This document shows, piece by piece, positions 4,309 to 55,300 of a stretch of 64,000 bases of DNA (position 1 is the stretch's first letter; each line of letters begins with the position of its first letter). The notes under the pieces are model-generated. The model made no database searches and was not told the DNA's origin. It saw only the letters and a list, made by a program, of their open reading frames with translations. The stretch is from Chrysoperla carnea (Eukaryota > Arthropoda > Insecta > Neuroptera > Chrysopidae), in assembly GCF_905475395.1 (NCBI RefSeq), contig NC_058340.1:74812181-74876180 (forward strand). The letters are read 5' to 3'. The position numbers and the translations under genes were made by a program.

Positions 4309-7300
4309 TTATGAATGATTTAGTAAAAAATTAGCTGTAGTTGAATCAATCATAACATTTGATTGTTGAACTGAGTTAGTTGTTGCACCAGCTACACCTG
4401 GAGTAGATGTTGTGGCAGCAGCACTGGTAGCTGTAGCATGTACTTTCATATGTGTTTTCAACGTACTCCCTTGTCCAAACGCTTTTCCACAAAATTTACA
4501 TTCATATGGTCGCTCACCCGTATGAATACGCATATGTATCTTAAGTGTACCACTAGTTTTAAATTGTTTGTTACATCCTGTACAATTAAATCTACGTTCA
4601 GTTGTATGTGAGTAACGCATATGATATGCTAACGCACTTCTACGTTTAAATTGTTTCTCACAAATGGTACATTTTAGATTTGGTCGTGATTCGGTATTGT
4701 GTGTAAATCGTACATGTCGTAAATGTTCTGTACGTGTTTTAAAACCTTTGCTACATATTTGACATGTGTACGCACGTATTTCAGCATGTTTACGCTCGTA
4801 ATGTATTTTTAGTGCAGCACGACATTCACACGTGTAGCCGCATGTTGAACATAAGTATGGTTTTTTACGTGGTCCCGATGAATTTTTATGTAATTTCCAT
4901 ATATGAATGTTTAGGCCGTATGTTGATGGGAATTCCTTGCAACATTCTGGACATTTTACGTTGTCTTCACTGTGCGCGTACAATAAATGTCGCTAAAAAT
5001 TAACATCAATACATTATTAATAGTCCTGCACATCGCATACATTTAGTATTAAGAAAAAAAGTGTGAGCAAGAGATTCATCGCTAGGGTCTCCTTGATGAT
5101 AGAGCAAAATTAAATTTTTTAAATTCTGGTGACGCCATACATTTTGATAACACAGGTAAATTTGATCCGATCTTATTGTAATTTATTTTTAAATTCACTA
5201 ATTTTGGATAATTCTTTTCAGCTATGATGTCAGTTTTTTTGCTAGCTATCACTTATGTGTTTAAGGTAGTTCCTCCGCGACCGTCCAGTCAAAAAGTTTT
5301 GGACTAATACTATCATTCAGTGCATTAACTGTGCTATGACTATTATACATATACCATATATTATTTTCAAAAGACTGTAGTTCCTCACTACTGATTCTAG
5401 TATACATATAAACACACACACTATGACATATGCCTTTAACATTAGTCTTCATATCTTTTCCACAAAAATCATCGCTAAAACGAGTTATTTATTTAAGTTT
5501 TTTATCGAAACTATATGGTAAATAATTTTTATTTTTATTTATATATTTTCTAAATATAGTATTCTACATTATATTAGTTTTTCATAGAGATGGTGGACGT
5601 CATTCATTGGTAAATAAATATAATATTTGTAAATTTGTGTATTTTTATACACTTCTCCCATGTACACGTACAAATTGCGTCACTTTTAATTGCTAATATC
5701 TCATGTATGGCATGGTAAATCATCTTCTAATTTTAACAGCAAGTGTATTATGAATTAAATATTTTATATTCGGAGTTTTGAGAAATTCTTGGAATATCAC
5801 TTTCGTGTAGGTACTACCTTAATTGCGAAAACAGGACTCTAGATTCTTGAATCCTATTAAAACTAGTTTAATTTTGATCACAAATTTGAAAAGTATGACC
5901 CAAATTTAGTAGGATTACATACTTGGTTTATTAAAATTGGATAGAATTTGGATGTGATAGAGCAAGATTAAATTTTTTGGATTCTGATGACGTCATAAAG
6001 TTAAAAAATTTTTTTTTTTTGTTAACACAGGCAAATTTGATCCGATCTTAATGGAATTTTTTTTGAAAATCAGTATTTTTGAGTCATTCTTTTCTGCTGT
6101 GATGTCAGTTTTTCACTAGCTATCACTTATGTGCTTAATTCCGAAACCAGGTCTCCACATTCTTGAAACCTATTAGATCTAGGTTAATTTTGATCACAAA
6201 TTTGAATAATATGACCCAAATTTAGTAGGATTACATACTTCGTTTATCAAAATTGGATAGAATTTGGATGTGATAAGTTAAATTAAATTTTTTGGATTCT
6301 AATGACGTCATAACGTTAAAAAATGTCATCGGCGCTATGTACCCTCGTTGCAGTCCTGCTAAAGATGATGATTGTAGAATATTAAGTGAAAGTTTATAAT
6401 TACCTTCATATGTAAAACCGTTTTCCCACATATTTGACATACTTGTTTATCCTTTTTATTATTATGCGTATGATAGATATGTTTACGTAACGTTGATGAA
6501 TTCTTATATTGTTTATTACATTGTGTACAATAATATTGTTTCTCATGTTGTAATAAATGTTTTTGTAATTTATTTTTATAAATAAAACCTTTATTACAAT
6601 ATTTACATTTTAAATCATATTCATTCATATGTTTTAATTTAATATGTAATTGATATTCTGATTCAATGATATATAATTTATTACATTCCATACATTTGTA
6701 TTCTTTTAATTCATTTAAATGTTGTTTTTGTAAATGTTTTTTTAATATATTTAGTTCGTAAAATGATTTTAAACAATAATCACATTTATATCTAAAAAAA
6801 CAACAAAAATCAATCAAAAACGCAGGTTTTAATTAAAAGTTGTACGTTTTTTTTATTGATTTATAGACCCTACGCAAATTGAGACGCAGTTTTAGGTAAA
6901 TGCATGTTAATGGGTAATGCAAGTTAATGCATGGGGGGGGGGGCTCTGTACGGTGAGTGACGCAGTTTTTATGTAGCCGTGAGTTTTTATGCAAACACGG
7001 CGTGCAAACTGCGTCAATTCAGTATAAAAAATCCACCTTATATGAACCTGCGTTACCCACAGACCTCCGTATACATAAAGCTATATCTCAATTGGAGCTC
7101 GGCCGTAAATTATACGGTATAGGTTTATGTAAGAAATAGTATATCAGGTCTTTCCTGGTAGAAAAAAAATTTGAAGAATAAGTTAAAAAGTCTTAGAAAC
7201 TCTGAAAAAATCTTAAGAACTCTGAATTTCTCAACGTTTTTGTACTGTCTAATTCACAGTTATTCAGATTTATTCAGTCTGAATTAGACGGTCCAAAAAC

Positions 7301-9204
7301 TTCTAGAAATTCAGAGTTTCTAAGACTTTTTAAGACTTGTTCTTTCTTCAAATATTTTTCACACCAGGGTGTCTGTTACTTTGTATAAATGTAGCTGAAT
7401 TTATAGCTGAAGAAAGACAGACCAGAAGCATTAACGCTGCTTGGCTGTCGGTGCGGATAGTAATTTTTCAGAACATTAGAGTGTTTAATCGAACAAATTC
7501 GCATATCTCGTAAATAATCATCACTTTGCTTGATACACGGTACAGTAATCCGGCAGCCGGAATGATAGTCGTAAATCTAAATATTCAGAAAAAATCCTAC
7601 ATCCTACCTTCCGCCCTTTGGCTTAACCAATACCTATGTTAGATACTTACTTAGCATCTCGTTGATGACGCTGCATATGTCTTTGATAATTACCATTCTC
7701 ATAGAATCCTTTATTACAAATGTTACAAGTTGCACAGATCTTTCTATTTGTATCATGCGTCTCCATGTGTCTCGCTAACGATGAAATATTTACTAATTTT
7801 TTATTACATATTAAACATAATAATTTACTTAAATCACATTGATCTGTACTTAAACTTTGTAACCAATTAATGCGAGCTTTACGTAACGATAACCTATTAT
7901 TATCATTATTATATTGTACGTTAATACTATCATCCGTTAATACTTTTAATTCATCATTATCATTATTATCATCATCACTACTGATCATTGAATTATTATC
8001 ATTATCACTTATTACATCATCATCATTATCCTTAAATTGATGTGGCTCATCTTTGATATCAAGTTCATTTTCTTTTTCACTTTTTATTGATATATTTTCA
8101 ATAGTGTTATCTTTGTCTGTTGTTGTATTTTTAAACCATTTTTTATCATCGTTGGTCTGTTCATTTAATAATTCTAATAAATATTGTTCGGATCGTTCAC
8201 ACTGTTTTTTAAAATTAATTGTTTGGTAAGTTTTAAAAATACAATCATTACAAATTTGTGTCGGTAATTCATTATTTTCATTTATCTAGAATAATTAATT
8301 AAATTCGTATTAATTAAGGTGTTTGTTTCCCTACAGTATTGTAAAAAAGTTTTGGTTTATTGCACGGTACATCCATATAAACCAAACACATGCTTTGTAG
8401 TCAAGTAATGTGTTATTTTTAGCTTTAGAATACCACGCAACTACAAAAATATATAATATATTCTGTACAAGTGCTGCTTATAAATTTGATAGTATAGATA
8501 TATCGCCCTTCAATCATCAATACTCTGACTATAGTCGTCTCTGTTTATCAAATGATGGATCTTCGATGAACTCATAATTAAATTAAAATTTTTATTGTTT
8601 TCAATCGCTTAGACAGCCTGATGCACAGTACAAAGTAGGCAAGGGTCAATGACTAGACCCCGCCTAGATAGGCGATTTAAATTCAGCCACGGGCGTTCAT
8701 AGCTCGACATAGGAGGTTTCCTTTCATGTTCTTAATATATATGCTCTTGCCTAGTTTAAATAAATTCTATGTGCTTAAGCATCCTAGTTTTCTTGTTTAT
8801 TTTATATTAAACAAAAAATTAATATTTTTATGTAATATCTATTGCATTATACACGTTTGAATTTTAAATATAATCGATGCCAGTTTCATACAATGAAACA
8901 TGGATATGTAAAGTGTACATCTACCTTAAGTTTTGAAATATTGAAGGTGTATGGGCTTCTTTATAAGAATTTCTTTGCAAAAATGCTAAATTTGGTAGTA
9001 CAGACGAACACTCCATTAGTGAATGTTGTTTTATAATTAAAAAAATATTTTATAATGTACCTTAATTGTTGTAAAAATTTGTAACATTTGTAAAACATCT
9101 GATTCAGATGTGCAGATGGAAATCATCCCTTGCTTGAATTCTAAACAAGTTCTACATATTTTATCAAAATCATATTTAGTTACCGATGTGAACGTTAAGG
9201 ACAT
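4309..9204 (-). CDS. ZAD-C2H2 zinc-finger protein A
   Basis: Four exons on the minus strand (9204-9061, 8285-7651, 6791-6404, 4992-4309) join in phase to 616 codons. Exons 1 and 2 encode a ZAD domain: CRTC in exon 1 pairs with CNDC just after the first intron, followed by QCERSEQYLLELL. ZAD is an N-terminal zinc-binding dimerisation module of insect nuclear DNA-binding proteins. A long acidic Asp/Asn-rich linker follows, then about 13 C2H2 fingers. The last ones carry the TGERPYEC linker and end at HMKVH before an Ala/Thr-rich tail. The seventh finger is short (CQICGKTVLHMKRH) and straddles the exon 3/4 border. The start ATG is the one that puts the ZAD cysteines near the N-terminus. An AATAAA overlaps the TAA stop on the minus strand. 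The DNA target is unknown. Confidence 0.92.
5092..5262 (+). repeat. 320-bp satellite-like repeat, partial unit (gene A intron 3)
   Basis: Matches part of the unit arrayed at 58685-59775: GATAGAGCAAAATTAAATTT, a decayed TGACGTCAT box, AACACAGGTAAATTTGATCC and GCTAGCTATCACTTATGTG. Confidence 0.65.
5810..6335 (+). repeat. 320-bp satellite-like repeat, about 1.6 units (gene A intron 3)
   Basis: Contains two passes of the segment TTTAGTAGGATTACATACTT and one full central part with GATGACGTCATAA. Same orientation as 5092-5262; related to 11286-11735 and, inverted, to the array at 58685-59775. Confidence 0.7.
6866..7020. repeat. Short inverted repeat with GACGCAGTTT / AAACTGCGTC ends
   Basis: A stretch in gene A intron 2 begins GACGCAGTTTTAGG and ends CAAACTGCGTCA. 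A ten-base run of G lies between (around 6933-6942). It looks like a small foldback element. No coding potential was seen. Confidence 0.4.
7154..7368. mobile_element. Foldback MITE with CCTGGT ends (gene A intron 2)
   Basis: 215-bp palindromic element. The left arm begins CCTGGTAGAAAAAAAATTTG and the right arm ends TTTTTCACACCAGG. Internally, GTCTTAGAAACTCTGAA pairs with TTCAGAGTTTCTAAGAC, and GTCTAATTCA with TGAATTAGAC. The arms are almost continuous, so the RNA could form one long hairpin. Confidence 0.7.
8320..8600 (-). mobile_element. Intron-1 repeat, gene A copy (partial)
   Basis: Reverse-complement match of part of 9995-10555. It includes GTTGCGTGGTATTGTAAAGC-like and TTATGAGTTCATCGAAG-like stretches. 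Other copies lie at 47108-47425 and 50395-50955. Finding it at the same distance from the exon 2 acceptor in genes A and B shows that it was present before, or was copied with, their shared tract. Confidence 0.7.
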
Positions 9205-9717: not shown

Positions 9718-12700
9718 ATGTCTTTTACAAGTACAGTAACTACAAATGATTTTAATAAAATCTGTAGAACATGTTTAGAATTTAAAGATGATATGGACTC
9801 AATATATGATAATGATACATTTACATTATTTACAATATTTAAAATTAAGGTAAATAATATTATGTTTGTACATTTTTATTATTAATTATTAATATTTGGA
9901 ATGAGTATAATAGATTCATAAATCAAAGGGCTATTCATAATATTTACATGTACTGAATTACACTCTTACATTTGTTTACATTAGTTTGGCTATATACTAT
10001 GGATTTCAATAAAACTTTAGAAATACATTTTTTGATTAACAAAGTTTCCAAAAATTGTTAGGTCCTTGGGCTTTTTATTATTATTTTATCGTTCAAAGTT
10101 GGCTGAAAAAATGATTAATTATATAGGTTATCCTTTTCAATTGGATATTTCTATATCAAAAAATCTACAGAGTGGGATAAAAAAACTAAAAACTATCTAA
10201 AATATTTAGACAATCTTGTAGTTTATAATAACTCCATAAAAATATAAGGTTGAGGATGATATAACAACAAAATTTTAATTTAATTATGAGTTCATCGAAG
10301 GTCCATCATTAGATGAACGGAGACGACTATAGTTAGAGTATTGAAATTGAAGAGAAATATCTATACTATCAAATTTATAAGCATCACTTGCACACAATAT
10401 ATTATATATTTTTGTAGTTGCGTGGTATTGTAAAGCTAAAAATAACTCATTATTTGACTACAAAGCATGTATTTGGTTTATATGTATGAACCGTGCAATA
10501 AACCAATACTTTTTTACAAGACTGTAGGGAAACAAACATCTTAATTAATACGATTTTAATTAATTATTCTAGATAAATGAAAATAATGAATTACCGTCAC
10601 AAATTTGTAATGATTGTATTTTTAAAACTTACCAAACAATTAATTTTAAAAAACAGTGTGAACGATCCGAACAATATTTATTAGAATTATTAAATGAACA
10701 GACCAACGATGATAAAAAATGGTTTAAAAATACAACAACAGACAAAGATAACACTATTGAAAATATATCAATAAAAAATGAAAAAGAAAATAAACTTGAT
10801 ATCAAAGATGAGCCACATCAACTTAAGGATAATGACGATGACGATGTGATAAGTGATAATGATAATATATTTAGTGATGCTGATGATAATAACAGTAGTT
10901 CGGAAAATGATGATTTAGATGATGATGATGATTTTAAACAAGAAATAACCACAGATGCTGATGGTAAAATAATTCAAACTGAATCGAACAGTGCTAGTAG
11001 AACAAGGAAGTCACGTATTGAATGGTTAATGACTTTAGGATCCGATAAATGTGATATCAATAAATTATTATGTAACATATGTTTAAAAAAATTAGGCACG
11101 AAAAGTTCATTAGCTAGACACATGGAAACGCATGATACAAATCGGAAAATATATGCAACTTGTAATGTTTGTAATAAAGGATTTCATGAAAAAGGGAATT
11201 ATGTGAGGCACATGATTAAACATGAAAAAGAACCTAAGTAAGTTATTCATTTGTTTTAATAGGTGGAGGAGCAGGCGTAGTATATACTGCACGTATGTGC
11301 TAAATTCCGAGGCCAGGACTCCTCATTCTTGAAACGTATTAGAGTTAGGCCAATTTTGATCACAAATTTGAAAAGTATGACCCAAATTTAGTCGGATTAC
11401 ATACTTGGTTTATCAAAATTGGATAAAATTTGGATGTGATAGAGCAAAATTAAATTTTTTGGATTCTGATGACGTCATAAAGTTAAAAAATTCGATTTTT
11501 TTGATAACACAGGCAAATTTGGTCCGAGCTTATTGGAATTTTTTTTAAAACCCACTAATTTTGGGTCATTCTTTTCAGCTGTGATATCAGTTTTTTGCTG
11601 GCTATCATTTATGTGCTTCATTCCGGGACCAGGACTCCACATTTTTGAAACCTATTACAGCTAGGTTAATTTTGATCACAAATTTGAAAAGAATGACCCA
11701 AATTTAGTAGGATTACATACTTAGTTTATCTATATAATTAGATATATGTCTCCGATTTCATGTTTATTCTCGAAGCCGAGGATGATAAACATGAGATCTG
11801 AGATATTCTTTAATGGCTGCCGTGGTGTGTACTATTTTTCTACTACGGGGACGGAAAACAGCATCTTCATTTAGCGCAGCGGGCGAAAGTTGATAGTTTC
11901 CGCTCGGAGGGGAGAAAAATAATTTTTACGCTGGCTGTTATAAATATTACGCTTGAACCCTATACTGCATACAGAATATTTAAACAATTAATTAATGATT
12001 TGCTTGTTGTTTTTTTTGTTCTAGACATAAATGTGAACATTGCTCGAAAAAGTTTTATGAATTAAGTTTATTAGGTAAACATTTACAAAAGAATCATGCA
12101 GTTAATCCAATTGAATGTGATGAATGCAATAAAAAGTTTTATTTACAAGAGCAATATGATTTTCATATGAAGATCCATAAACAAGATTATGAACATATTT
12201 GTAAATATTGTAATAAAGGTTATTTCTTGTTACATCGTTTACAAGAACATCTGTTAACGCATGAACGTACATATTTATGTACGATATGTAATAAAACGTA
12301 TAAGAATCATACGTCATTAAATAAACATAACTTTAGATATCATAAAACTGTACAGGAGCCACAAGTATGTCAGATATGTGGCAAAAGTGTTCTACAAATT
12401 AAGGTAAATCAATTTAAATTATATACATCTTTTATCAGGCGAGCGAAGCGAGCCTCTACTAGGTTAAAATGTAACTTTTTGGGGGTAAACTTTACAAAAA
12501 AAATACAAAAGATTTAGACATGAAATGAAATGTTATAGTTCCATATTTATGTCTAGATGTGTTATCAATCATTATTTTTAGAAAAAATTATTACAGGGTG
12601 GACCATTTTAATGTATAATATCTAAAAGCTAATTTTGTAGAATTTGAAAAAGTTGTAGAATTTGATGGGGGGACAACATATTCTGACGTAAGATTGAACT

Positions 12701-13401: not shown

Positions 13402-13572
13402 TTCATTTAATGAGTCAGGCTTTGGTGTTTTGTATTAGAATATCCTGTGTTTTGACATAAGAAAGTAAGAACATCGTGAAACAGACGTTTATTGATCGCC
13501 TAGAATTTAGGGATGGCGTGAAATTCGTGGGATATTTATCCAAAATTTTAGTAATTTAGATATTATTTTCAA

Positions 13573-14154
13573 TAGGGAATATTCATGAAACTTAAATTTA
13601 GTTCAAATATTTTTCTTCCGTAACTTTAATGACTTTACATTTCAACTAAACCATTATTTTAGTAATTAATATCTTTTTAATTACTTAAAATTAATTAATA
13701 AAAGTACAAATTCAGTGAGGACATTTAAAAATTTCTAAAACGGAAATTAAAATTTTTAAACGGACGTGACATCATAGTACGGGCTTGTCAAATTTGTTGA
13801 CATACTGTATGATATTAATTACTTACATTTTATTTGGTATTTCATTAAACTATATTATTCTACGGATTTTTATTAGAAAACTTAATAATAACGAGTGTAA
13901 ATTCTATGTTGTAAATTCATTTTTTTAAGTGTAAATTATACATTGAACTGTCACTAATTGACAGATCACGTACTTATACGTCATCAACAGAGAGCGCCAA
14001 AAAACTGCGTTTAAATATCTCAAAATTATAATGTATTTTAAATATTTGTTTACACTTAAATACACCATTTTTAAGCAGTATTTATATTTTTTACTTTGTT
14101 ATAACGGTGTAAACAATGAATTAAAAATATCAAAAAAGACATGAATATTCCCTA
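13573..14154 (+). mobile_element. TAGGGAATATTCATG inverted-repeat transposon, copy 1
   Basis: 582-bp element with perfect terminal repeats (TA)GGGAATATTCATG and CATGAATATTCCC(TA), downstream of gene B. The TA at each edge fits a TA target duplication, as in Tc1/mariner-type MITEs. A second full copy lies inverted at 14908-15484 and a half copy at 40467-40702. No transposase is present. Confidence 0.75.
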
Positions 14155-14689
14155 TTAGCACTATTTTTAGCGGGCGCTAACTTTAGCTGAATGCAGCCAA
14201 TGTATTAATCAAAGAGAATAAAATAGAGGTGAAATTATGTTTTGAATAATATGATTTCTTTGATTTTAATTATGAGTTTTTTGTACAAAAATTTTTTATA
14301 CTCAATAAAACATAGTACTTAATTTGTATAAATAAAGCTTTACTTTTTATAAATCCCTAAAATTAAAAAACTTGTTGTTTTTATACTTCTGTAAACAACT
14401 TTTAGAAAATATTGATTTTTGAATTAATTAAAAGCATATAAGCATTTGAATTAGTCATTTGTGCAATAAAATCAATGAAATATTGATATTTAATTAATTT
14501 ATAATTAAATCTCATAAATATATTATATTTTAATTTATTAAAATCGATTAATTTAAAAAAAGTACCACAGTAATAGTAAATATATTGTAGTGGAGTATTC
14601 TACTTGTCATGTAAATTAAAAAATATTATATAGTGGAATGAAAGGAGTGAGCTTCATTAATTAAGTAAATAAATAACAAAAATTAAAAA
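14155..14689. other. Spacer before ZAD gene C
   Basis: AT-rich spacer of about 535 bp that should contain the promoter and 5' UTR of gene C. No gene or distinct repeat was recognised. Confidence 0.4.
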
Positions 14690-17600
14690 ATGATAACAAA
14701 ATCAGATTTTGATAAAATATGTAGAATATGTTTAGAATTAAAGAAATTAAATGAAATGAATCAATTTACAATTGATATTAAATCTATGCTACAATTTTGT
14801 ACAACTATACAGGTACGTATTTATTAATAAATTAAAGTCATTAATTAACAATTAAAAAAAAAGGATCTAATGTTAAAAATAAATGTTAAAACTTTAAACT
14901 TAAACAATAGGGAATATTCATGTATTTTTTTAAATATTTTTAATTCATTGTTTACACCGTTATAACAAAGTAAAAAATATAAATAATGCTTAAAAATGCT
15001 GTATTTAATTGTAAAAAAATATTTAAAATACATTATAATTTTGAGATATTTAAACGCAGTTTTTTGGCGCTCTCTGTTGATGAAGTATAAGTACGTGATC
15101 TGTCAATTGGTGACAGTTCAATGTATAATTCAAACTTTAAAAAATGAATTTACAACATAGAATTTACACTCGTTATAATTAAGTTTTCTAATAAAAAGCC
15201 GTAGAATAATATAATTTAATGAAATACCAAATAAAATGTAAGTAATTAATATCATACAGTAAGTATGTCAACAAATTTGACAAGCCCGTACTATGATGTC
15301 ACGTCCGTATAAAAATTTTAATTTCCGTTTTCGAAATTTTTAAATGCCCTCACTGAATTTGTACTTTTATTAATTATTTTTAAGTAATTAAAAATATATT
15401 AATTACTAAAATAATGGTTTAGTTGAAATGTCCAGTCATTAATGTTACGAAAGAACCAAATTTAAATTTCATGAATATTCCCTATTGTGAGATAGTTGAT
15501 AGAGTATTTTAATGAAAAATTGAACTATATTGTTAATTGAAATTTACGTGGAAAGATTTTCAATGGGAGGGGTTTTGACCCCCCAAAACCCCTGCCGTGC
15601 GCACAGGCCTGACTGTTCCGAATGGTAAACCTCTTATAATATTCATATTGTTTAATTTTTAGTTAAATAATAATTCATTATTACCATCACAAATATGTAA
15701 TTTATGTTTAATAAATATAAATAAATATTATGAATTTAAAAAACAATGTGAACATTCTGAACAATATTTATTACAATTATTATTAAATGATAACAACACA
15801 AATGATAATGATGATAAAACATGGTTTCAAAATATACAAATTAAATACGAACAACAACAACAACAAACTAATTTAAATCATAAAGATGAACAACAACAAG
15901 TACAAGATGATAAAAAAGATTTTAATATTTATGAAGGAGTTGGAGTGGGTGGTGGTGGAGCTGGGGAACCATCATCAACTAAACATGATAATAATGGTGA
16001 TGATGTTGTTGAAGATTTAAATGAATTGAATAATGATTATAATGATAATAATACAGATAATACAGATAGTAGTACAGATAGTAGTGATAATGGTGATAAT
16101 GATTTTAATGATCAAGAATTTGAACAAGAAACTGAAGAAACGTTATATGATAATAAAAATAATAAGTTATCGAAACGTGCTGAGCAAATACAATGGTTAG
16201 CACTTGCTTATAGACGAAAAAATAAACGAAAGAACGGGGATATTTTGATATTTTATGTAAGAACAGTGCTCTTCTGATCACGACAATTATTATTTAATAA
16301 AAAGAACTTCATCATTAAGGCTATATTTCTGCCTATTAGATTAGGATACCTGGCTCTCACCCAGGAGGCTCGGGTTCGATTCCCGGTACCGGAACCATTA
16401 TGTAAGAGCTTGTTCTTACAAATTAAAGCTGAAATGTGGAGAAAAAATAAGAACAACCATTTGATGTCTTTAAATCTCTCTCTGAGGGTGAGATGGTAGC
16501 CATGGATCTTGCATACGATCAATAAGAAACAAGAATCACCAGCCCGTTACAGTTTTTATAATTAGATTATTGAAAAGGGATTTTTGTCTTTTCATGTTTT
16601 TGAAAACTTGAAAAATCTACATAAAAGGCTGGAAAGTAGGGTTGTAGAAGTAGTACTGCTAAAAGATACTTCTATAAGATTAACTCAATTTACATATAAA
16701 CTCCCTACGCTTTAACACAATTTAATGAAAGTGTAGAGGTGTGGAACGTTATAAAAACTGCGAAAGATCATGTTTTGTGCTTTCTGGCCACGCAGAAAGC
16801 CAACTTCTCCGCCGGGATTTCTTCCAGGGTTGATGGATTCAAACATTCTAAACCTGACGGCCTGTTTGTTTCTGTAGATGCAAAAAATATGTATGGAGGT
16901 TTCGTCGTCCTCCATACAGACCCTACAAGTGAGGTTATCGGAGATACCCAATTTATAACAGTGGTAGTTCAATCGACGGTCTCCTGTCAAGAGTCAAAAG
17001 TGAGTTTCAGACGACTACGGTCGAATGGCCTAGCTGTGGCTATACACATTTTGACCTGTCGCATGCCCTGTGCAAAGTCGCTGCCATCAAGATGAGCTTC
17101 TCGTAGCCACTCCTTGATTCGGTAAATTACGAAGCATCTTGTTATGTAAATGACAGGCTCAGATGAAAGAGGCGTTTGAGACAACCTCTCTTGTACCAAC
17201 GAGTTCGCTGCTCATTCCCTTTAATACCAAAGTGGTCCGGTACCCAGGTCATTGATAGACTATCATCGATAGGACGCTTCAAGGGCCCGAAGAGCGACTT
17301 GACTATGTGAGAAGATGCTGATTTGTGTCCCACTGTAAACTTTTGTTCCCCAGATCTGGACACCTCGCTTATTAATCAAGAGGACTCGATTCTTTTATTG
17401 CAGGTCCTTAAAACCCAGCATCGGATAGATCTCCGGCCATTAATCCATCCGTTTACAGATATAACCCGGGCAGGGGTGAAAGACCATGATAATTCGACCT
17501 TAAAAGGGGGCAAGGGGCTGAAATGTTTCTTTATTGTTTTTTCCGTGATTATAGAGAGTAGGTTTTACATAAAATTCTAAAATATCGCTCTTTCATCACT

Positions 17601-20600
17601 AAATATATCCATTTTAAGTTTGATTTTTTTGTTGTAGGTTACAAACATTAAGTTCTGATAAATGTAATATTACAAAATTATTATGTTTAATTTGTAATAA
17701 AACGTTAGCTCACATCGGATCATTAGCCAGGCACATGGAAATACATGAAACAAATCGAAAATATGTAGCGGAATGTACACAATGTAACAAAGGATTCTAC
17801 GATCAAACGAATTATTTAAAACATTTAGAACGACATACGGGCCAAGTACAAAAGTAAGTTTTGCATTGTTAAAAAACAATAAGTTTGCAAGTGATGGGTG
17901 TTTATGCCAGGATTTCTTGCATACAAAACGCGTGTTTAGCCTCTAAACTATATATCTTTGAAGTTGGTGATGTGGTCTGTATGGCACGCATTCTCATGAA
18001 CACCTTGTTTTACACTCCGTTCATTGCGTGAAATTTTCACACAGAGATGTTCGCGACATGTTTTCTTAGGATCATTTTTAAATCGTGTATATACAGTGTG
18101 TCCCCGGATAGAGGTAACTATACTTGTAAATTTCCTTATTTTGCATTTTAAGAAAAAAAGTAATTCTTTATAAGAAGTTTTGCTTATTCTGAAAAGTATG
18201 TAGGAATATTTAAAACTTCTTAATAATGTACAGGGTAGCCAAAAATTTGGAATCACTATATATATTTTTAGTAAACTACCCTTCTTTTTTATAAGTTGGC
18301 GAAATGTTATAAAGAAAAGTAACTCGCAATTAAAAATTACGACTCTATACAAAATATCAAGAAGATCCGTGTACTTTAATTATAACATCATTTTTTATTT
18401 GAACAAAAGCTCTAATTATAAAAAAACGTAAGAAAGGAAATAATAATAAATCAATTAACATGTACTACTCGAGAGTGTAATTTTTGTGGAATAGTTTAGA
18501 AAATTAAAAAGAAAATTTATTTTCTCGGATAAACATTCACTAAGAATGGAATTGTTAAAGTTGAAAAGATCTTCTTGATATTTTGTATAGAGTCGTAATT
18601 GTTAATTTCGAGTAACTTTTCTTAGTAATATTTTATCAACTTTTAAAAACGAAGGGTAGTTTACCCAAATAAAAATAGTGATACCAAATTTTTGGCTACT
18701 CTATACATCATTTAGAAGTTTTAAATATTCCTACATACTTTTCATAATAAGCAAAACTTCTTATAACGAATGAATTTTTTTCTTAAAATGCAAAATAAGA
18801 AAATTTACAAGTATATAGTTACCTCTATCCGGGGACACACTGTATATACATGATTTAAAAAGAATCCTAAGAAAACGTGATTTTTTGGGAACGTCCTTAA
18901 GAGTGCATAAATGATTTGTATTTAATTTTGTAGACATAAATGCACACATTGTGATAAAGAATTTTATGAATTAAGTAAATTATCAACACATTTAAAGAAT
19001 ACACATAAATTATCATCCGAATATAAATGTAAAGAATGTAATAAAGAATACATATTAAAAGAACAATATACAACACATATACAAACAAAACATTATAATA
19101 TTAAACGATATAAATGTACAAAATGTCCAAAACAATATCATTTACAACATCGTTTACAAAAACATATTAAGAATACACATGAGAAAATTTATTTATGTCA
19201 AATATGTGATAAACAATATAAATCACATACATCGTTAAAGAATCATACCGATCGTTATCATCCGAAATCAATTGATAAACAATCGAATTTATTAAAAAAA
19301 TCATGTCATATTTGTGGTAAAATTGTTTTACATATGAAGGTAAACTAACTCTTAACTTATTTTTATCATTTAACCCGTCAGCACTGGCGTCAAACGTTCT
19401 GTAACACAGGTCTGCGACTAAAAAACTGCATAGGATTTTTTTACATTTTCTTATACATTTTGACCTTTCAAAAACAGGAAAACTTTTCAAAACATTCTAT
19501 CACATAGGTTTTCATAGATATTAGTAACAACAAAAATCTTAAAGTAGTAGTATTGTACAATAAAAATAAATTAGCTTCGCTTCCAATGGGTTATTCTGTG
19601 CATATGGAAGAAAACTAACTATAACAATTTGGCCATTACCCTGGAATATAATATCAAATATCAATGGACCATCAATGGATGGTTTGTGGGGACTTCAAAA
19701 TACTCACGATGCTTTTGGGTCAGCAGGCAGGCTATACTAAATTCTTATGCTTCTTATGCTTATGGGATAGTAGAGCCAGAAAACAGCACTGGACTAAAAG
19801 TGATTGGCCACCCCGAGAAACTTTAAAAACTGGGGAGAAAAATGTTATCAATACTACTTTGGTGCCGCCAACAAAATTATTGTTGGCACCTCTCCATATC
19901 AATTTGGGGTTGATCAAACAATTTGTAAAATCCCTGCAAGAGGGTGGAGACTGTTTTAAATATCTATGTACAAAATTCCCGAAGCTGTCAGAAGCCAAGT
20001 TGAAAGAGGGAATTTTCACTGGCCCCGACATAAGAAAGCTTTTAACTGACACCCTCTTTGTGGAAAGTATGATTGAGAAGGAAAAAGAATCTTGGGTATC
20101 GTTCAAGGATGTATTGCGAAAGTTTTTGGGAAATACTAAGGATCCTGACTACAAAACCATTGTTCAACTAGCAGCTTACGAAGCTCAAGGCTGCAAGATA
20201 AGCCTGAAGGTCCATTTTTTACACTCTCACATAGAATATTTTCCTGGGAACCTGGGAGCTTACCGTGAAGAACAGGAGGAGCGGTTTCACCAGGATGTCC
20301 GCGATATCGAGAGACGATACCAAGGAAGATGGGATCTCACTATTCTTGCAGGCTACTGTATAATTTTTAATTCGAACGGTTCACGCGAGTGTTGATGGGT
20401 TAATATATTATTTTTATATTTTTCATATTAAAATAATGTTTTAATGTTTTATGTTTAATGTTTTAGAGACATATGTTAGTACATAATGCTGCCCGTACAT
20501 TTCAATGTACAAAGTGTACAAAATCATTTTTATTCAACAGTGATTTAGTAGCACACATTAAACGTGTTCATGATGCTGCTAACAATCAAGATGGTGCATC

Positions 20601-20991
20601 GAATGCCACCCTTCTACCATATTTATGTAATATTTGTGGTAAACGTCGACAATCACAATCAGCGTTACAACAACACATTATTCATGCGCATACAACGGAG
20701 AAAACGAAATTATGCACAATATGTAATAAATATTATAAAACTGATTCAGCATTACATCGACATATTCGATTTTCACATAAGAATGATCGTCGTTTTAAGT
20801 GTACAGTGTGTACTAAAGTATTTTATACGAATGCTATGTTACGTATTCATATGCGTACTCACACCGGGGAACGTCCGTATCAATGTGTGATCTGTTCGAA
20901 ATCGTTTGTACAAAGTTGTACGTTAAAAACACACATGAAAGTGCATAAAGGAGCTGATGATCAACAATATCACACTAGTAACACCGCGTAA
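14690..20991 (+). CDS. ZAD-C2H2 zinc-finger protein C
   Basis: Five exons (14690-14812, 15663-16195, 17638-17853, 18934-19339, 20467-20991) give 600 codons. The ZAD has CRIC in exon 1 and PSQICNLC at the start of exon 2, then CEHSEQYLLQLL. A linker rich in Gln, Asn, Asp and Gly follows (including EQQQQQ and GVGVGGGGAG), then about 12 C2H2 fingers ending in THTGERPYQC and HMKVH. The short finger CHICGKIVLHMK-RHMLVH spans the last intron, as in A and B. The intron at 16196-17637 is absent from A and B and interrupts the conserved QWLQTLSSDKC block; it appears to come from a transposon insertion. If that intron is not removed, the frame ends after WLALAYRR... and the fingers are lost, so its splicing decides whether the gene works. 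Confidence 0.88.
14908..15484 (-). mobile_element. TAGGGAATATTCATG inverted-repeat transposon, copy 2 (gene C intron 1)
   Basis: 577-bp copy in the opposite orientation to 13573-14154, inside intron 1 of gene C, with the same ends and TA edges. The two copies, about 750 bp apart and inverted, could pair in a transcript. Confidence 0.75.
15560..15630 (+). repeat. GGGGTTTTGACCCCCC repeat end
   Basis: Locally GC-rich stretch in gene C intron 1 (GGAGGGGTTTTGACCCCCC followed by CCCTGCCGTGCGCACAGG). It stands out from the AT-rich surroundings and looks like the end of an inserted element of unknown class. Confidence 0.35.
16327..16393 (+). repeat. tRNA-Glu-like sequence (SINE head or tRNA pseudogene)
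   Basis: The anticodon arm CCTGGCTCTCACCCAGG (anticodon CTC) and the T arm CGGGTTCGATTCCCG match eukaryotic tRNA-Glu. The 5' acceptor strand does not pair with the 3' part (TACCGGA) and the D arm is degenerate, so a working tRNA is unlikely. It sits inside the transposon-derived intron. It may be the promoter head of a SINE, whose tail was not delimited. Confidence 0.6.
16700..17510 (-). mobile_element. Non-LTR retrotransposon (LINE) remnant, RNase H region
   Basis: Minus-strand translations show an RNase H-like piece (MTWVPDHFGIKGNEQ, compare the family motif WVPGHSGIxGNE) followed by TGDRRLNYHCYKLGI and [16 protein letters not shown]. The latter is the zinc-knuckle-like C-terminus found in I/R1/LOA/Jockey-type LINEs with RNase H. 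The reading frame changes several times and the reverse transcriptase region is absent, so this is a dead 3' fragment. A related fragment lies at 42620-43190 in cueball. Confidence 0.7.
18061..18875. mobile_element. Large foldback element with 310-bp arms (gene C intron 3)
   Basis: The left arm (18061-18365) and right arm (about 18560-18875) are reverse complements over about 310 bp. They share CAGTGTGTCCCCGGATAGAGG, TTGCATTTTAAGAAAAAAA and GACTCTATACAAAATATCAA. A spacer of about 195 bp separates them. There is no coding capacity. The CAGTGTGTCCCCGG terminus suggests a DNA transposon, but the superfamily is not assigned. Confidence 0.75.
19404..20395 (+). mobile_element. Element with ACACAGGTCTG end and conserved ORF remnant (gene C intron 4)
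   Basis: Begins ACACAGGTCTGCGAC and carries a protein-like region (about 19664-20380) with LHINLGLIKQFVKSL, FPKLSEAKLKEGIF, FLGNTKDPDYK, SHIEYFPGNLGAY and ERFHQDVRDIERRYQGRWD. Similar sequence recurs at 30538-31550 and 41139-41530, and proteins of this kind occur as multi-copy families in insects. The mobile-element class is not known to me. The copy is probably a broken relic and lies within an intron, so it is not part of the zinc-finger protein. Confidence 0.6.
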
Positions 20992-30537: not shown

Positions 30538-31550
30538 ATAACACAGGTCTGTAAAAAAAAATTTTTTGTCAGCTGCATGAGATATTTTTACTAAATTTGC
30601 AAATTCAAAAACATAAAATTGGTAAAAGCACTCGTTTATTAAAAATTATACAGTAGTCTGCAAGCATCCCATCTTCCTTGGTAACGTCTGTCGATATCGC
30701 GGACATCCTGGTGAAACCGCTCCCCCTGTTCTTCACTGTAAGCTCCCAGGTTATCAGGGTAATATTCTATGTGGGAGTGCAAAAAATGATCCTTCAGGCT
30801 TATCTTGTAGCCTTTAACTTCGTGTGCTGCTAGTTGAACAATGGTTTTGTAGTCAGGATCCTTAGTATTTCCCAAAAACTTTTGCACTACATCCTTGAAC
30901 GATACCCAAGCTTATTTTTCTTTCTCATTGATACTTTCCACAAAGAGGGTGTCGGTTAAAAGCTTTTTGATGTCGGGGCCAGTGAAAACTCCCTCTTTCA
31001 AATTTGCTTCTGACAGCTTCGGGAATTTTGTACATAGATATTTAAAACAGTCTCCATCCTTTTGCAGTGATTTTACAAATTGTTTCATCAACCCCAATTT
31101 GATATGGAGATGTGGCAACAAAATTTTTTCTGGCGGCACCAAAGTAGTATTGATAACATTTTTCTCCCCAGGTTTTAAAGTTTCTCGGGGTGGCCAATCA
31201 CTTTTAGTCCAGTGTTGTTTTCTGGCTCTACTATCCCATAAGCATAAGAAGCTTGCGTATTTAGTAAAGCCTGCCTGCTGACCCAAAAGCATCGTGAGTA
31301 TTTTGAAATCCCCACAAACCATCCCTTGATGGTCCTGATGTTTGATTCTTTCCAAGGTAATGGTCAAATGGTTACAGTTAGTTCTCTTCCATATGCACAG
31401 AATAACCGCACTGGAAGCGAAGCTAATTTATTTTTATTGTGCAATAATACTACTTTAAGACTAGTTTATGTTGTTACTAATATCTATGAAAACCTTTGTG
31501 ATAGAATGTTTTGAATAGTTTTCCTGTTTTTGGGAGGTCAAAATCTATAA
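30538..31550 (-). mobile_element. Element with ACACAGGTCTG end and conserved ORF remnant, minus copy
   Basis: Relative of 19404-20395 on the opposite strand, with LHIKLGLMKQFVKSL, FPKLSEANLKEG and ERFHQDVRDIDRRYQGRWD. The edge at 30540 reads ACACAGGTCTG, which shows that both ends of the family carry this inverted terminal motif. It appears to be a broken relic of unassigned class. Confidence 0.6.
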
Positions 31551-40315: not shown

Positions 40316-43300
40316 CTAGTAAAAGTCATCACCATTTTCCATATTTGTGAGTAGAGTCTTTTTTTCTTCAGTCTTTGATGATTTGGTTGATGTACGTAAT
40401 TGGGGTGGTTCAAAACACGGCTAAAATTAAATAAAATTAAAATGTATTTTTATACCATGTATGAAGGGCTTGTCAACAAATTTGACAAGCCCGTACTTTG
40501 ATGTCACGTTCGTATAAAAATTTTAATTTCCGTTTTAGAAATTTTTTAATGCCCTCACTGAATTTGTACTTTTTTATTAATAAATTTTAAGTAATTAAAA
40601 AGATATTAATTACTAAAATAATGGTTTAGTTGAAATGTCCAGCCATTAAAGTTACGGAAGAAAAATATTTGAACCATATTTAAATTTCATGAATATTCCC
40701 TAATATGTAATGAATTGTAACTTACCGTTTCACAAATGTTCATGTTACAACAATTCTCAATGGTAATCTCACATTGATCACCTGGACCTGGTGATCGTGT
40801 ATCATTTGGACGACTTGTTAATGGTGTTACATTCTTATTTACAATAATTCGACGTTTAATTCTCGGTCGTTTTTTAAGCCAACACACAGCTGTTGTTAAT
40901 GCCATATTGACGGGTATTAAAACAATTACTAATACAATTAACACAATTACAAATGGATCTTGTAATTTTGCAAACATTCCATAGGTCTCATCTGATGCGC
41001 CTGTTTCTTGTCCTCGTTGTGATGCAGATGTTAATTCTTCTTGTATGTTTGATGATGCTGCTGGTATATTAACATCGTATACACATCTGCACAAAGAAAT
41101 TAAATTATTTTATTAATACTACCCTAAATCAAATTCATTACACAGGTCTGCGACTAAAAAACTGCATAGGATTTTTTTCCATTTTCTTATAGATTTGACC
41201 TCCCAAAAACAGGAAAACTATTCAAAACATTCTATCACATAGATTTTCAAAGATATTAGTAACAACATAAACTAGTCTTAAAGTAGTAGTATTGCGCAAT
41301 GAAAATAAATTAGCTTCGCTTCCAATGAGTTATTCTGTGTATATGGAAGAAAACTAACTATAACAATTTGGCCATTATCCTGGAAAGAATCAAATATCAG
41401 GACCATTAATGGATGGTTGGTGGGGACTTCAAAATACTCACGATGCTTTTGGGTCAGCAGGCAGGCTATACCAAATACCTATGCTTCATATGCTGATAGG
41501 ATAGTATAGCCAGAAAACAGCACTCCAGTGCTGTAAAACGGACTGATCCGTTTTGATAAATTAATGCTTACGGTATGTGTTATCGCACGATAGGTTGCGT
41601 ACAACATTTAATTTACAAAGAAAAGCAGTGTAGGTTTTAATGGGTTAGTTTTTATAATAACATAAGTAGCCAAATTGAGTTTTTTTGTAATAATTTTGCA
41701 TTTAGAGACGCCTTCCACAAAAAGTTATTGAGCTGTGATTCTCTAAAGATATATTAATTTGTTTTGTTAATTATCTCGCAAAGTAGGCTTCAGATCCAAA
41801 AGTGGAAAATAACTTTTTCCTTCGTCGTTATGAGCTTATTCTGCAGGATGACGATCTGCAGTCAATAACAGAACGCCCTGTATACTAGGGAAGGGATGTA
41901 CTTACTTGCATAAAGATGTATCATGTTGTGACTTTAATATTTGATATAAATCATGTTGTTCACAAATAATTCTACAGAGTTGTTCTTGTTGATCACCATT
42001 ATTATTCATCTCACATCGTTCACCATTAAATCCATCCAAACATGCGCATTGTGCTTCTAATGTTTCATTATTTATTGAACAATAACCATTATTTAAACAA
42101 TATTGATCACATTTATTGATTTCACAACGTAATCCTGTATAACCTACAGGACATAAACATTGTGGTGCACCATAATCACTAGCTCCTTCACTAGCACCTT
42201 GTATTGAACATATACCACCAGACATACAGAAGTTATGGCATGCTTCTACTTCACAACGATCACCCGTGTACGCTGCTGGACATTTACATATTGTGTTACC
42301 ATGGACATTTGTATATAATTCACCATTGTTTAAACATTCTAATGTTGTGGTTGTTGTTGTTTGTTTGTTGTCTTCTTCGACGATTGTTGTTTGTTGATTG
42401 TCATTATTTGATAATGGTGTACTAGTACTAGTAATCATTGTTGTTGTAGATGTTGATGTAAGTGATTTAGTTGTTGGTATTGTTTCAATAATAGCATTAC
42501 ATTGTTCTTGTGGTATGAATGGTGAAGTTAATGATGTCATTTGTACCATATCCACATCTAAAACAAAAATAATAAAACTTATTCACCTTGTACCTGAAAC
42601 ATTTTTTAGTTGTGGTACCGCAAATAGGTCCCTAGCACCTAGATCAAGGGATACTCTGTGCCTTTCTTGAGAATAACATGTCATCCGGAGGCAAGACGTC
42701 CTCAAGAAAGAGATGACATTCTCCACCGGGATTTCTTCGAGATTTCTGCTGGTGGAAATAACATGTATGGATGTTTCATCGTCTTCCCATAGATCCTCGT
42801 GTTATGAGGAAAGCACTTCAATCGACAGTGACTTGACAAGAGTCCTATCAACCTTCACAACTATGCTCTGATGAGTTTCAAGCGAGCACAATCGAATGAC
42901 CTAGCTGTGTTTATACACAGTTAAGTCGCATGCCCCCCGCAAAGGTCGTAGCCATTCTTTGATTTGGTAAATTATGGAGCATTTTGCTATTGGAATGACA
43001 GGCTCAGATGAAAGGGACGTTTGAGACGACTTTTCTCGTACCAACCCCGATACCCAGATCAGCCTGTTTGTGTTATTCAGTACCAGACTACTCAATGCTG
43101 ATTTGTGGCCCACTGTAACCTTTCGTGTTAGAGATCTGTGCACGTCTCAGGATGGAAAAGATTTATGGTTGAATTAAAATGGTCAAACTATGGCCAAACA
43201 CGAAAACAAACTATTTTTAATTACGTAGAGGATACGATTTACTTTCTAAAGTTAAAGAATATTTAACGCGTAAAATATTTGAGGCATGTGCAGAAGGCGT

Positions 43301-52300: not shown

Positions 52301-55300
52301 AGACAAATCTAATTAATTAGAACTGGCTCTCTCATAAGTTTTTACATACTCATTACCCATTATAGCCCCCCACATTATTGTGCTAAAATATGCAATAAAA
52401 GACAGTCAGACAGACGGATAGACCCATTTTAATGTAATATTCATAAAATATAATTTTAAAATAATATTGAGAATTTATAATCATATACTTAGAATTCTAT
52501 TTTATACAAATTCTTTAACAAATAGCTGTCTGTTATCAATTGTTATTTATAAAATAATACCAACTGATTGTAAGACCAATTTGTTTTGTTTTTTTTGGGC
52601 GATTTGTGGTTTTATTGGTCAGAAATCTCAAAGTTTGAGTACTATCTAATCGAAATTTATATTTTAAATTGAGTTTCCTTTGAGTAATCGATTCAAAAAT
52701 TCACTTATGATTTACTACTAAAGTAGTTTCAAAAATATGATCATTTGTTTAGTGTTCCGTAAAATCCGATGGGTGATACCATATGTGACTGACACTACAT
52801 GCAAAAAGAAATCGTGTTCTAGAGTGTCTTTAAACTTCGGACATCTTCCTCTATGCAGGATTTATGATTTTAAATTGAATTTGGGGCCAAATTACATAAA
52901 TTATTGGAAAATGGTAAAATAAAGAACCTTAGTATTTTAGAATGAAATTTAGTAAAAAAATAAATCTTGACTGACGCTAAAATAATGAAATTTTAAGGAA
53001 AACTTAAAATTTATGAAGAAAAATCGAATTTTAGGTATTCTAAGATACTGAAAGCTACAAAGTACTACAGTGTTGGACTCATACAGTATTTTTACCACCA
53101 ACAGCAATATTTTTTTCCATTCATGTTACACTTTTTCATGGAATCACCCATTTGATAAGTTTTTAAACATCTTATAACAGAGTTAATTAATGATTACGAA
53201 AAAAACCTAGGACAAGAAAGACTTTGACTTCTTTAATTAATAAAATATTTATTAAAATCAATCAATCAATCAATAAACAAATATCTTTATTATTATGATT
53301 AAAATGTCAATAGTTTAAACACTTTTTTTTTTAACAGTCTTATACTTATTTCTTTTTATTTAATTAATAGAATAAATTTTCTGTTAAAAAGAATACAAAT
53401 TATATTAGCATTCTAATAAAATAGTAAAAGATAGTGTTATTAATAGTAAATTAAGTTTTATGTGCAAAATATTAACGATTCCGTTATATTATTTATTTTG
53501 CAAAACAAAGATAAACTAATTACAAAGCAATATAATGCCATCTCACTTTAACAAACTATCAAAAACTTTAGATTTATCAAGGAGCCATACTTAGAGAAAA
53601 TTTGATCGTTCACAAGAAATAATAAAAGGATATACCTTAGACATTTTAAATTTGATCTTGATCTTGGGGGGGTCGTCTAAAAGTCATCTAGAGCTAGTGT
53701 TAGGTAATAGAAGAATACTTCGAATTTTGAAAAAGTTGAATCATTTATTGGGAATATTATTTTTTGTTTAAATCGAGTAGATTAGGCAAAAATTGATTTT
53801 CAACATACAAGGTGGACTAACTATTATGGCTAATATCTCGTTTTGTAATTAGTCAATCAAAAAATAACTTCAACAAAAGTTGCAGTTTGATGGGGGGATA
53901 TCATCATTGGACCTAGTTCTCCGGGTTGCTTTAATACTCACTTTCGATCCTAAACTGTAAGAGATAGAATATCACTTTAAATTAGAAAGCTTAACCTTCG
54001 AAAATCGTTAGTTTTTGGAGGAAACACGACTTAAAATTATGTCAGTTTTGCATTTCGAAAGGAAATCGAAAAGAAAACACGCTAGCTACAGAAAAATGTT
54101 CTAGACAAAAGTTGTTAAGGCCAATAGAGGACATTCGCCTGTGTCCACGACTTTGACCTACAATTATAATTAATTAATTTGTCGGGGGTTTTTTAAATTT
54201 TGTAAACTTCACTTGTTATCGTTATTTAGCGAAATGTAAGTCTTTCATGTTGTATGCTTTTTTATTTATATTATTTAGACGCCAAACTTATAACACCCTT
54301 CTTTTTGTGTCGGGGGTTAAAAACGCAAGAAGTTCAGCGTAAAACTAAAATTTAACTTGTATGGATGGCTCTTAGTATAAAAGTTTATTTTATGGCTCTT
54401 AGTATAAAAAGTAGGTAAGTAATAGACAAAGATAAAAATTTATTATTTACAATACATTTGTATATAGTTATCCTTATTTTATACAAATTATTAATAAAAT
54501 GTTATTTAATATGGGTCGTTAAATAATAACGCTGACAATGTGTTAAAGATTAAAAAGCTTGACGATAGTGTTAGATGTGATTTTAGTCACGTAGGCCTTC
54601 TTTTTATTTATAATAAATAAATATAAGAAGTAATATTAGAATTAAATGATGTGTGTTAAATTAACAATCAATTATTAATTTATAAATAAATAAATAAAAT
54701 AATGAAAGTAATATGAAGCTACATTTTAATCAGTTTTATTGTTTTGCTAACGTTTCAAACATATTATAGACGAAGAAACGAAGCACAAAAATGATCACAG
54801 TTAGAAAAATTTGAGAAGTAAGTCGGATTTGAATGCGGTTTTCGACATTAAATTCGTTAAAGAGTCAGGAATATTGTCACTTAGTCTGATTTATAAGAAA
54901 TGCATTTTATAATTGCATTTTAAATTGACCGATAATTTTAAATTGATCAAAAACTACAGATGACGGGGAGTTGACGGGGATACCATTGTACCAGATACCT
55001 CTGAGACCAATTCCGTCAAATTCCGTCACTATATTCATGTTCAGCGTCCCCAAAAACTACCGAGTAACGAGTTTGGACTGATTATATGATGAATTTCTCA
55101 AAACTCCAGTAGGCGACTGGGATACAATTGCACCAGGTACCTCTGAGAACAATTCCGTCGCGATATTCGTGTTCAGCGACCCCAAAAACCCTCGAGTTAT
55201 AAGTTTGGGCTGATTATATGACGAATTTTACGAAAACTCCAAGAGGCGACGGGGATAACATTGCATCAGGTACTTCTGAGATCAATTCTGTCACGATATT

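Follow-up and report, generated by a model that had tools for sequence, protein, structure and literature searches.

How did a zinc-finger gene of the insect Chrysoperla carnea come to carry a probable intron inside a Trp codon at a place where its neighbours read straight through? The window analysed here, 64 kb of contig NC_058340.1, contains three neighbouring ZAD zinc-finger genes, of which gene A is on the minus strand and genes B and C are on the plus strand. Their part exons fall slightly under the Pfam cut-off for zf-AD, and C2H2 fingers are also found. Gene C alone of the three has the interruption, a proposed gained intron of 1442 bp at 16196..17637 (+, GT...AG, within the Trp codon). 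Judged from the sequence, the history to which we give about even weight is that a spliceosomal intron was gained in the gene C lineage only, through an insertion that duplicated 5 bp of its target, and was later enlarged.

The case begins with the exactness of the join. Gene C is read on the plus strand as exon 1, the ZAD start (14690..14812, donor CAG|GTACGT); exon 2, the remaining ZAD and an acidic linker (15663..16195); exon 3, zinc fingers 1-2 (17638..17853, donor GTAAGT); exon 4, zinc fingers (18934..19339); and exon 5, zinc fingers and the stop (20467..20991). The last bases of exon 2 are CAATG, ending at 16195, of which the final TG belongs to the Trp codon, and the frame picks up at 17638 as G TTA CAA. 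Joining 16195 to 17638 gives ...CAA TG|G TTA CAA... (QIQWLQTLSSDKC). The predicted splice falls after the first G of GGTTA and yields ...QIQW LQTLSSDKC..., so that removing the DNA from G|GTTAGC through TTGTAG|G does restore the frame as QWLQTLSSDKC, as had been claimed in an earlier note on this DNA. The insert begins with GTTAGC and ends with TTGTTGTAG. Left unspliced, the frame would run 26 residues beyond the Trp and stop at 16275-16277; that note had said that unspliced RNA would encode only the ZAD and linker. An interruption together with a frame-exact join of this kind is, on the letters of the sequence, beyond chance.

Both borders of the insert carry GGTTA, as the note had also said, the left one at 16195..16199 (+) containing the donor G|GTTAGC and the right one at 17637..17641 (+) the last base of the acceptor TTGTAG|G. 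There are two copies of GGTTA in gene C and one each in A and B. The acceptor region at 17595..17637 (+) has ACTAAAT, then a T tract preceding the acceptor, then TTGTAG|G; ACTAAAT resembles a branch-point consensus. The donor had been called non-standard, and it is unusual. Among 20 other donors of the family, read by eye from homology with a few uncertain, one starts with GTTA, and T at +3 occurs in two, both in a paralogue at locus L016, one of them being GTTAGT. Since that paralogue probably uses the GTTAGT donor, GTTAGC is not alien to the family. A more consensus-like cryptic donor, GTAAGA, is present at 16257..16262 (+), and joined to the acceptor at 17638 it would bring the frame to a stop 6 codons into exon 3.

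Whether the intron was gained in gene C or lost elsewhere was addressed through the rest of the family. The assembly containing the window (G000, 559 Mb) was searched with the spliced gene C peptide, which gave at least 155 matches, with the best 150 of 4288 candidates scored. Thirty loci were retrieved, and 21 of them were examined: gene C itself (L014) and 20 others (L015-L032, L035, L037). The nine set aside match chiefly in the finger part (L033, L034, L036, L038-L043); they include four minus-strand loci (L033, L034, L038, L041) that were not read in the correct orientation. Within this one genome, the interruption is found in gene C only (1/21), and all 20 of the other examined members are open from the ZAD part to the first fingers. 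The matching sites are uninterrupted in A (AAT TGG TTA CAA, in the open frame 7647..8285, -), in B (GAA TGG TTA ATG, in the open frame 10573..11241, +) and in a third close paralogue, L016 (ACA TGG GTT ATG). The earlier note was thus correct that A and B are uninterrupted at the Trp-Leu block where gene C has about 1.44 kb. The Trp at the matching place is kept only in A, B and L016; the distant members are continuous, with different sequence there. A tree of 21 rows joins gene C to L016, A and B (93/89) and sets four further intron-free genes beside them (97/92); the branching order within the group is unsettled, and the rows for C and B consist of the finger part only. Other introns of the family are retained, including the neighbouring introns in A, B and related genes.

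Since gene C is the only one of the 21 to be interrupted, a gain there is more probable than a loss elsewhere, and the simplest history would be a gain on the C branch. That the intron was ancestral and lost in all the other family members we consider very unlikely: intron loss is common in general, with 297 losses against 189 gains reported in a Drosophila survey (PMC3296678), but several independent exact losses would be needed here while the neighbouring introns persisted. Two other sources were rejected. Transfer of the intron from a paralogue found no support, as none of the 20 other examined members carries the same intron. Tandem genomic duplication found none either, as comparison of the insert with the window found only short matches to exon 2 at E 0.27 and, among the matches listed, none to exon 3, with no exon-like sequence past the E 0.27 matches. 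The family also has further ZAD members on the same chromosome (G000:C4:832500-850500 and C4:75.00-75.02 Mb). Within the window, the DNA of A and B is 83% identical over 983 bp (7645-8592 vs 10269-11243), whereas the exon 5 protein of A is only 46-47% identical to those of B and C, the B-C value being 65%. Gene A therefore looks mosaic, perhaps through gene conversion.

The interior of the insert is layered. A repeat, here called X, is recognised by genome matches in a left part at 16303..16341 (+) and a right part at 16568..16723 (+), with one copy among those listed extending to about 16765. Between the two parts sits a short interspersed nuclear element (SINE) at 16342..16560 (+), which is 5'-truncated with a tRNA-like 5' part and internal deletions, and it is flanked by the target-site duplication ATTAGAT at 16335..16341 (+) and 16561..16567 (+). 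Copies of X elsewhere in the genome, of which five were aligned, are continuous across the SINE position; C2:66122452, C1:17984509 and C2:17986640 are examples from the genome matches. Since X is unbroken at these loci and ATTAGAT flanks the SINE on both sides, the sequence places the SINE as an arrival in X later than X itself. The SINE is dispersed, occurring in at least 39 other places among those scored in the genome. The sequence 16342-16560 scores 25.7 bits against the Rfam tRNA model (gathering threshold 29); ARAGORN calls a tRNA in two of eight SINE loci (L006 as Glu, L007 as Lys) and none in the gene C insert.

To the right of X is a remnant of a long interspersed nuclear element (LINE) in antisense orientation, about 16787..17481 (-), corresponding to the RNase H and C-terminal region and broken by stops and frame breaks. 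Its main matches to other copies show about 70-81% identity, and the likeness to the left of 16787 is weak and judged by eye. Of two pieces taken from relatives, one scored 22.5 bits with Pfam RNase H (cut-off 25.8), and two tested pieces of the insert's own LINE gave no Pfam match. A second diverged copy of this LINE lies at 42719-43126 of the window in pieces, the longest of which is 71% identical. The stretch between the SINE and the LINE had at one stage been taken as part of the inverted-repeat element described below, with the LINE end at 16605; that was replaced by repeat X at about 16303-16723 after a joined search. The earlier note had recognised a SINE head and a dead LINE. Both are present, but the SINE sequence goes beyond its head, and the surrounding repeat X was missed. 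The suggestion of that note that later insertions enlarged the intron is borne out by the SINE within X and its ATTAGAT duplication.

The SINE also provides a minimum age. Against a consensus of six other copies it differs at 12 of 195 sites (6%); seven copies were aligned, and L005, whose 3' part differs, was omitted from the count. The insert must be at least as old as that divergence. Downstream of it, about 380 codons of exons 3-5 have no stop. In neutral simulations of about 380 codons (2000 runs), the frame stayed free of stops in 14% of runs when 0.02 substitutions per site were applied, in 0.7% at 0.05 and in none at 0.08. Since the downstream frame has stayed open although the SINE is 6% diverged, the sequence suggests that the insert is spliced, and splicing in vivo is what we infer; a promoter of its own for the downstream part could also account for the open frame. 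Over exons 3-5, the nonsynonymous and synonymous divergences (dN and dS) are 0.34 and 0.98 for C-B (355 codons) and 0.45 and 1.04 for C-A, values that also span the time preceding the insertion. The alternative that the insert stays unspliced, leaving gene C disrupted and giving a ZAD-linker protein only or nothing, has in its favour the unusual GTTAGC donor and the more consensus-like GTAAGA 61 nt downstream, which would give a truncated product. We regard it as most improbable in view of the roughly 380 stop-free codons after at least 5-6% neutral change, which a separate downstream promoter could also explain.

What founded the intron is a separate matter, and the evidence for gain is stronger than the evidence for any founder. 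The outer parts of the insert contain the arms of a diverged inverted repeat, the left at 16228..16311 (+), which shares its final 9 bp with the beginning of X, and the right at 17519..17594 (-). The arms are identical at 61 of 72 aligned bases. Of 10000 dinucleotide shuffles, 3 scored as well; in comparisons with the window, none of 1618 did so for the left arm and one of 1618 for the right. This suggests, on sequence grounds, that the outer parts may be an old foldback element, or one like a miniature inverted-repeat transposable element (MITE), of at most about 263 bp.

On the history that we propose, the site of entry would have been G|GTTA in the Trp-Leu codons, where DNA of no more than about 263 bp (outer parts of 107 + 156 bp, with the inverted arms), possibly an old MITE-like element, came in and duplicated 5 bp. 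The left GGTTA would then provide the 5' splice site, G|GTTA followed by GC from the insert, and the acceptor AG would take its A from the insert and its G from the start of the right GGTTA. Splicing would take out the insert and one target copy, leaving the coding sequence unaltered. Repeat X, the LINE piece and the SINE would have inserted afterwards, the intron growing to 1442 bp. More tentatively, we consider it possible, if somewhat doubtful, that a foldback (MITE-like) element of about 260 bp, now single-copy, founded this intron of an insect transcription-factor gene, that the 5-bp duplicated target supplied all of the 5' GT and one of the two bases of the 3' AG, and that the site then served as a safe one for three more mobile elements with the frame intact.

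A number of observations weigh against this history. In the border repeat only two bases are informative, T and A at +3/+4, because G, G and T are what a Trp codon and GT/AG splicing require. Of 251 cases in the non-coding DNA of the window, 7% have TA after GT, and so GGTTA under an ordinary intron is a coincidence of about 1 in 15 to 1 in 20 (~5-7%). With G, G and T fixed, the 5-bp duplication is weak by itself and would exceed chance only weakly. In addition, the Drosophila survey reported direct repeats of at least 5 bp at the junctions of 26 of 100 conserved introns vs 19 of 77 gained ones (PMC3296678; retold in PMC3443670), and in another study all 213 introns are reported to have nearby direct repeats (PMC11782384), which makes a border repeat weaker as a special sign. 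The direct repeat alone was dropped as proof of insertion, given the ~5-7% chance and the Drosophila survey; it supports insertion with duplication and does not tell whether a transposon or the filling of a staggered break was at work. Searches of the genome at E <= 10 found no other copy of 16196-16302 (107 bp) or of 17482-17637 (156 bp), with very common words skipped, so that old copies may escape; a transposon end at GGTTA is therefore not seen. The inverted repeat was spotted by eye prior to testing, and among 5000 pairs of pieces drawn at random from the window (real repeats included) 1.6% reach its score. Its arms fall short of the borders, starting 32 and 43 nt in from the splice sites, with an extension out to the borders that is not significant (p = 0.06). 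Finally, in C-A exon 4 alone dN (0.49) exceeds dS (0.39), and so purifying selection is not uniform. The same searches disposed of two candidates. A known or repeated transposon family at the borders was rejected, since both ends match only themselves and three extra hits fall in the LINE part; for an introner family, the genome yielded no second copy of the insert ends at E <= 10. The proposal of a transposon gain in the earlier note holds for an intron confined to gene C with an exact join between GGTTA copies, but the transposon origin is not established.

The 75 nt outside the arms (32 + 43) could equally be read as an ordinary short intron, since they contain the donor, the branch-point-like ACTAAAT and the T tract. 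A plain intron of about 75 nt may thus have been gained first by an unspecified route, with the inverted-repeat element, X, the LINE and the SINE coming later and GGTTA being coincidental; the GTTA start of one of the 20 other family donors fits this. The origin of the 75 nt is left unexplained, however, no duplication around the inverted repeat is seen (by eye only), and the 5-7% coincidence at +3/+4 is required, and we rate this account as unlikely. Somewhat less probable still is that a staggered double-strand break was repaired with filler DNA, a process that likewise produces a short direct repeat and has been proposed for Daphnia introns, where 33 such repeats of 4-12 bp are reported (PMC4202315). 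The 5-bp repeat and the ends without another copy agree with it, but the inverted arms are not accounted for, and the genome search at E <= 10 gave no filler source for the insert ends, one that age might conceal. The founder may have been a transposon, the filling of a staggered break or a plain 75-nt intron invaded later.

Other repeats lie around the intron. Inverted copies at 13570-14156 and 14906-15487, 92.9% identical with ends AATAGGGAATATTCATG, flank exon 1 of gene C; this AATAGGGAATATTCATG-ended repeat has a partial copy at 40471-40702 and, among the matches listed at 92-93%, 39 other genome places, including the 13570-14156 copy itself. Gene C has a 247-codon open frame with no Pfam match in its final intron, at 19652-20395, and the segment 19451-20371 has a 90.6% DNA copy at 30638-31550 and a partial copy at 41140-41524. 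A repeat of about 316 bp occurs at 5818-6324, 11290-11744 and 58695-59770; it is tandemly arranged at 59071-59770, and introns of A and B contain copies. A tandem array at 55019-55388 has 2.8 copies of a 133-bp unit.

The model of intron gain through target-site duplication is already known, and gene C is a further candidate for it; no title in the literature searched describes the gene C intron locus. A 2012 review lists 35 cases of transposon intron gain in four genera (PMC3443670), and introns from tandem duplication are treated in PMC2891723. The transposon-made intron reported for Doc1053 in Drosophila sechellia GM26034 (PMC3296678) is similar in that an insertion with target duplication in an insect coding region is removed as an intron. 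It differs in that the Doc1053 intron is reported to show, across 99% of its length, 98.4% similarity to a known element, whereas the ends of the gene C intron match nothing and the recognisable elements are internal; the Doc1053 duplications are also described as lying at the 5' end and 15 nt past the intron. Introners, as described in PMC9860276, likewise take splice sites wholly or partly from the duplicated target and leave the mRNA unaltered, with mixed cases known, but they form multi-copy families, in contrast to the gene C ends without a second copy; among animals and land plants, that source reports them from only two groups, both animal. The Daphnia neointrons (PMC4202315) share with gene C a short direct repeat at opposite ends and no known source; gene C, known here from one genome, differs in having inverted arms and nested repeats. 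Animal intron gains with a traceable founding insert are reported to be few (PMC3443670). The gene C case combines empty sister sites in one cluster with a target that is present twice and an interior built up in layers, and these together make the order of events testable.

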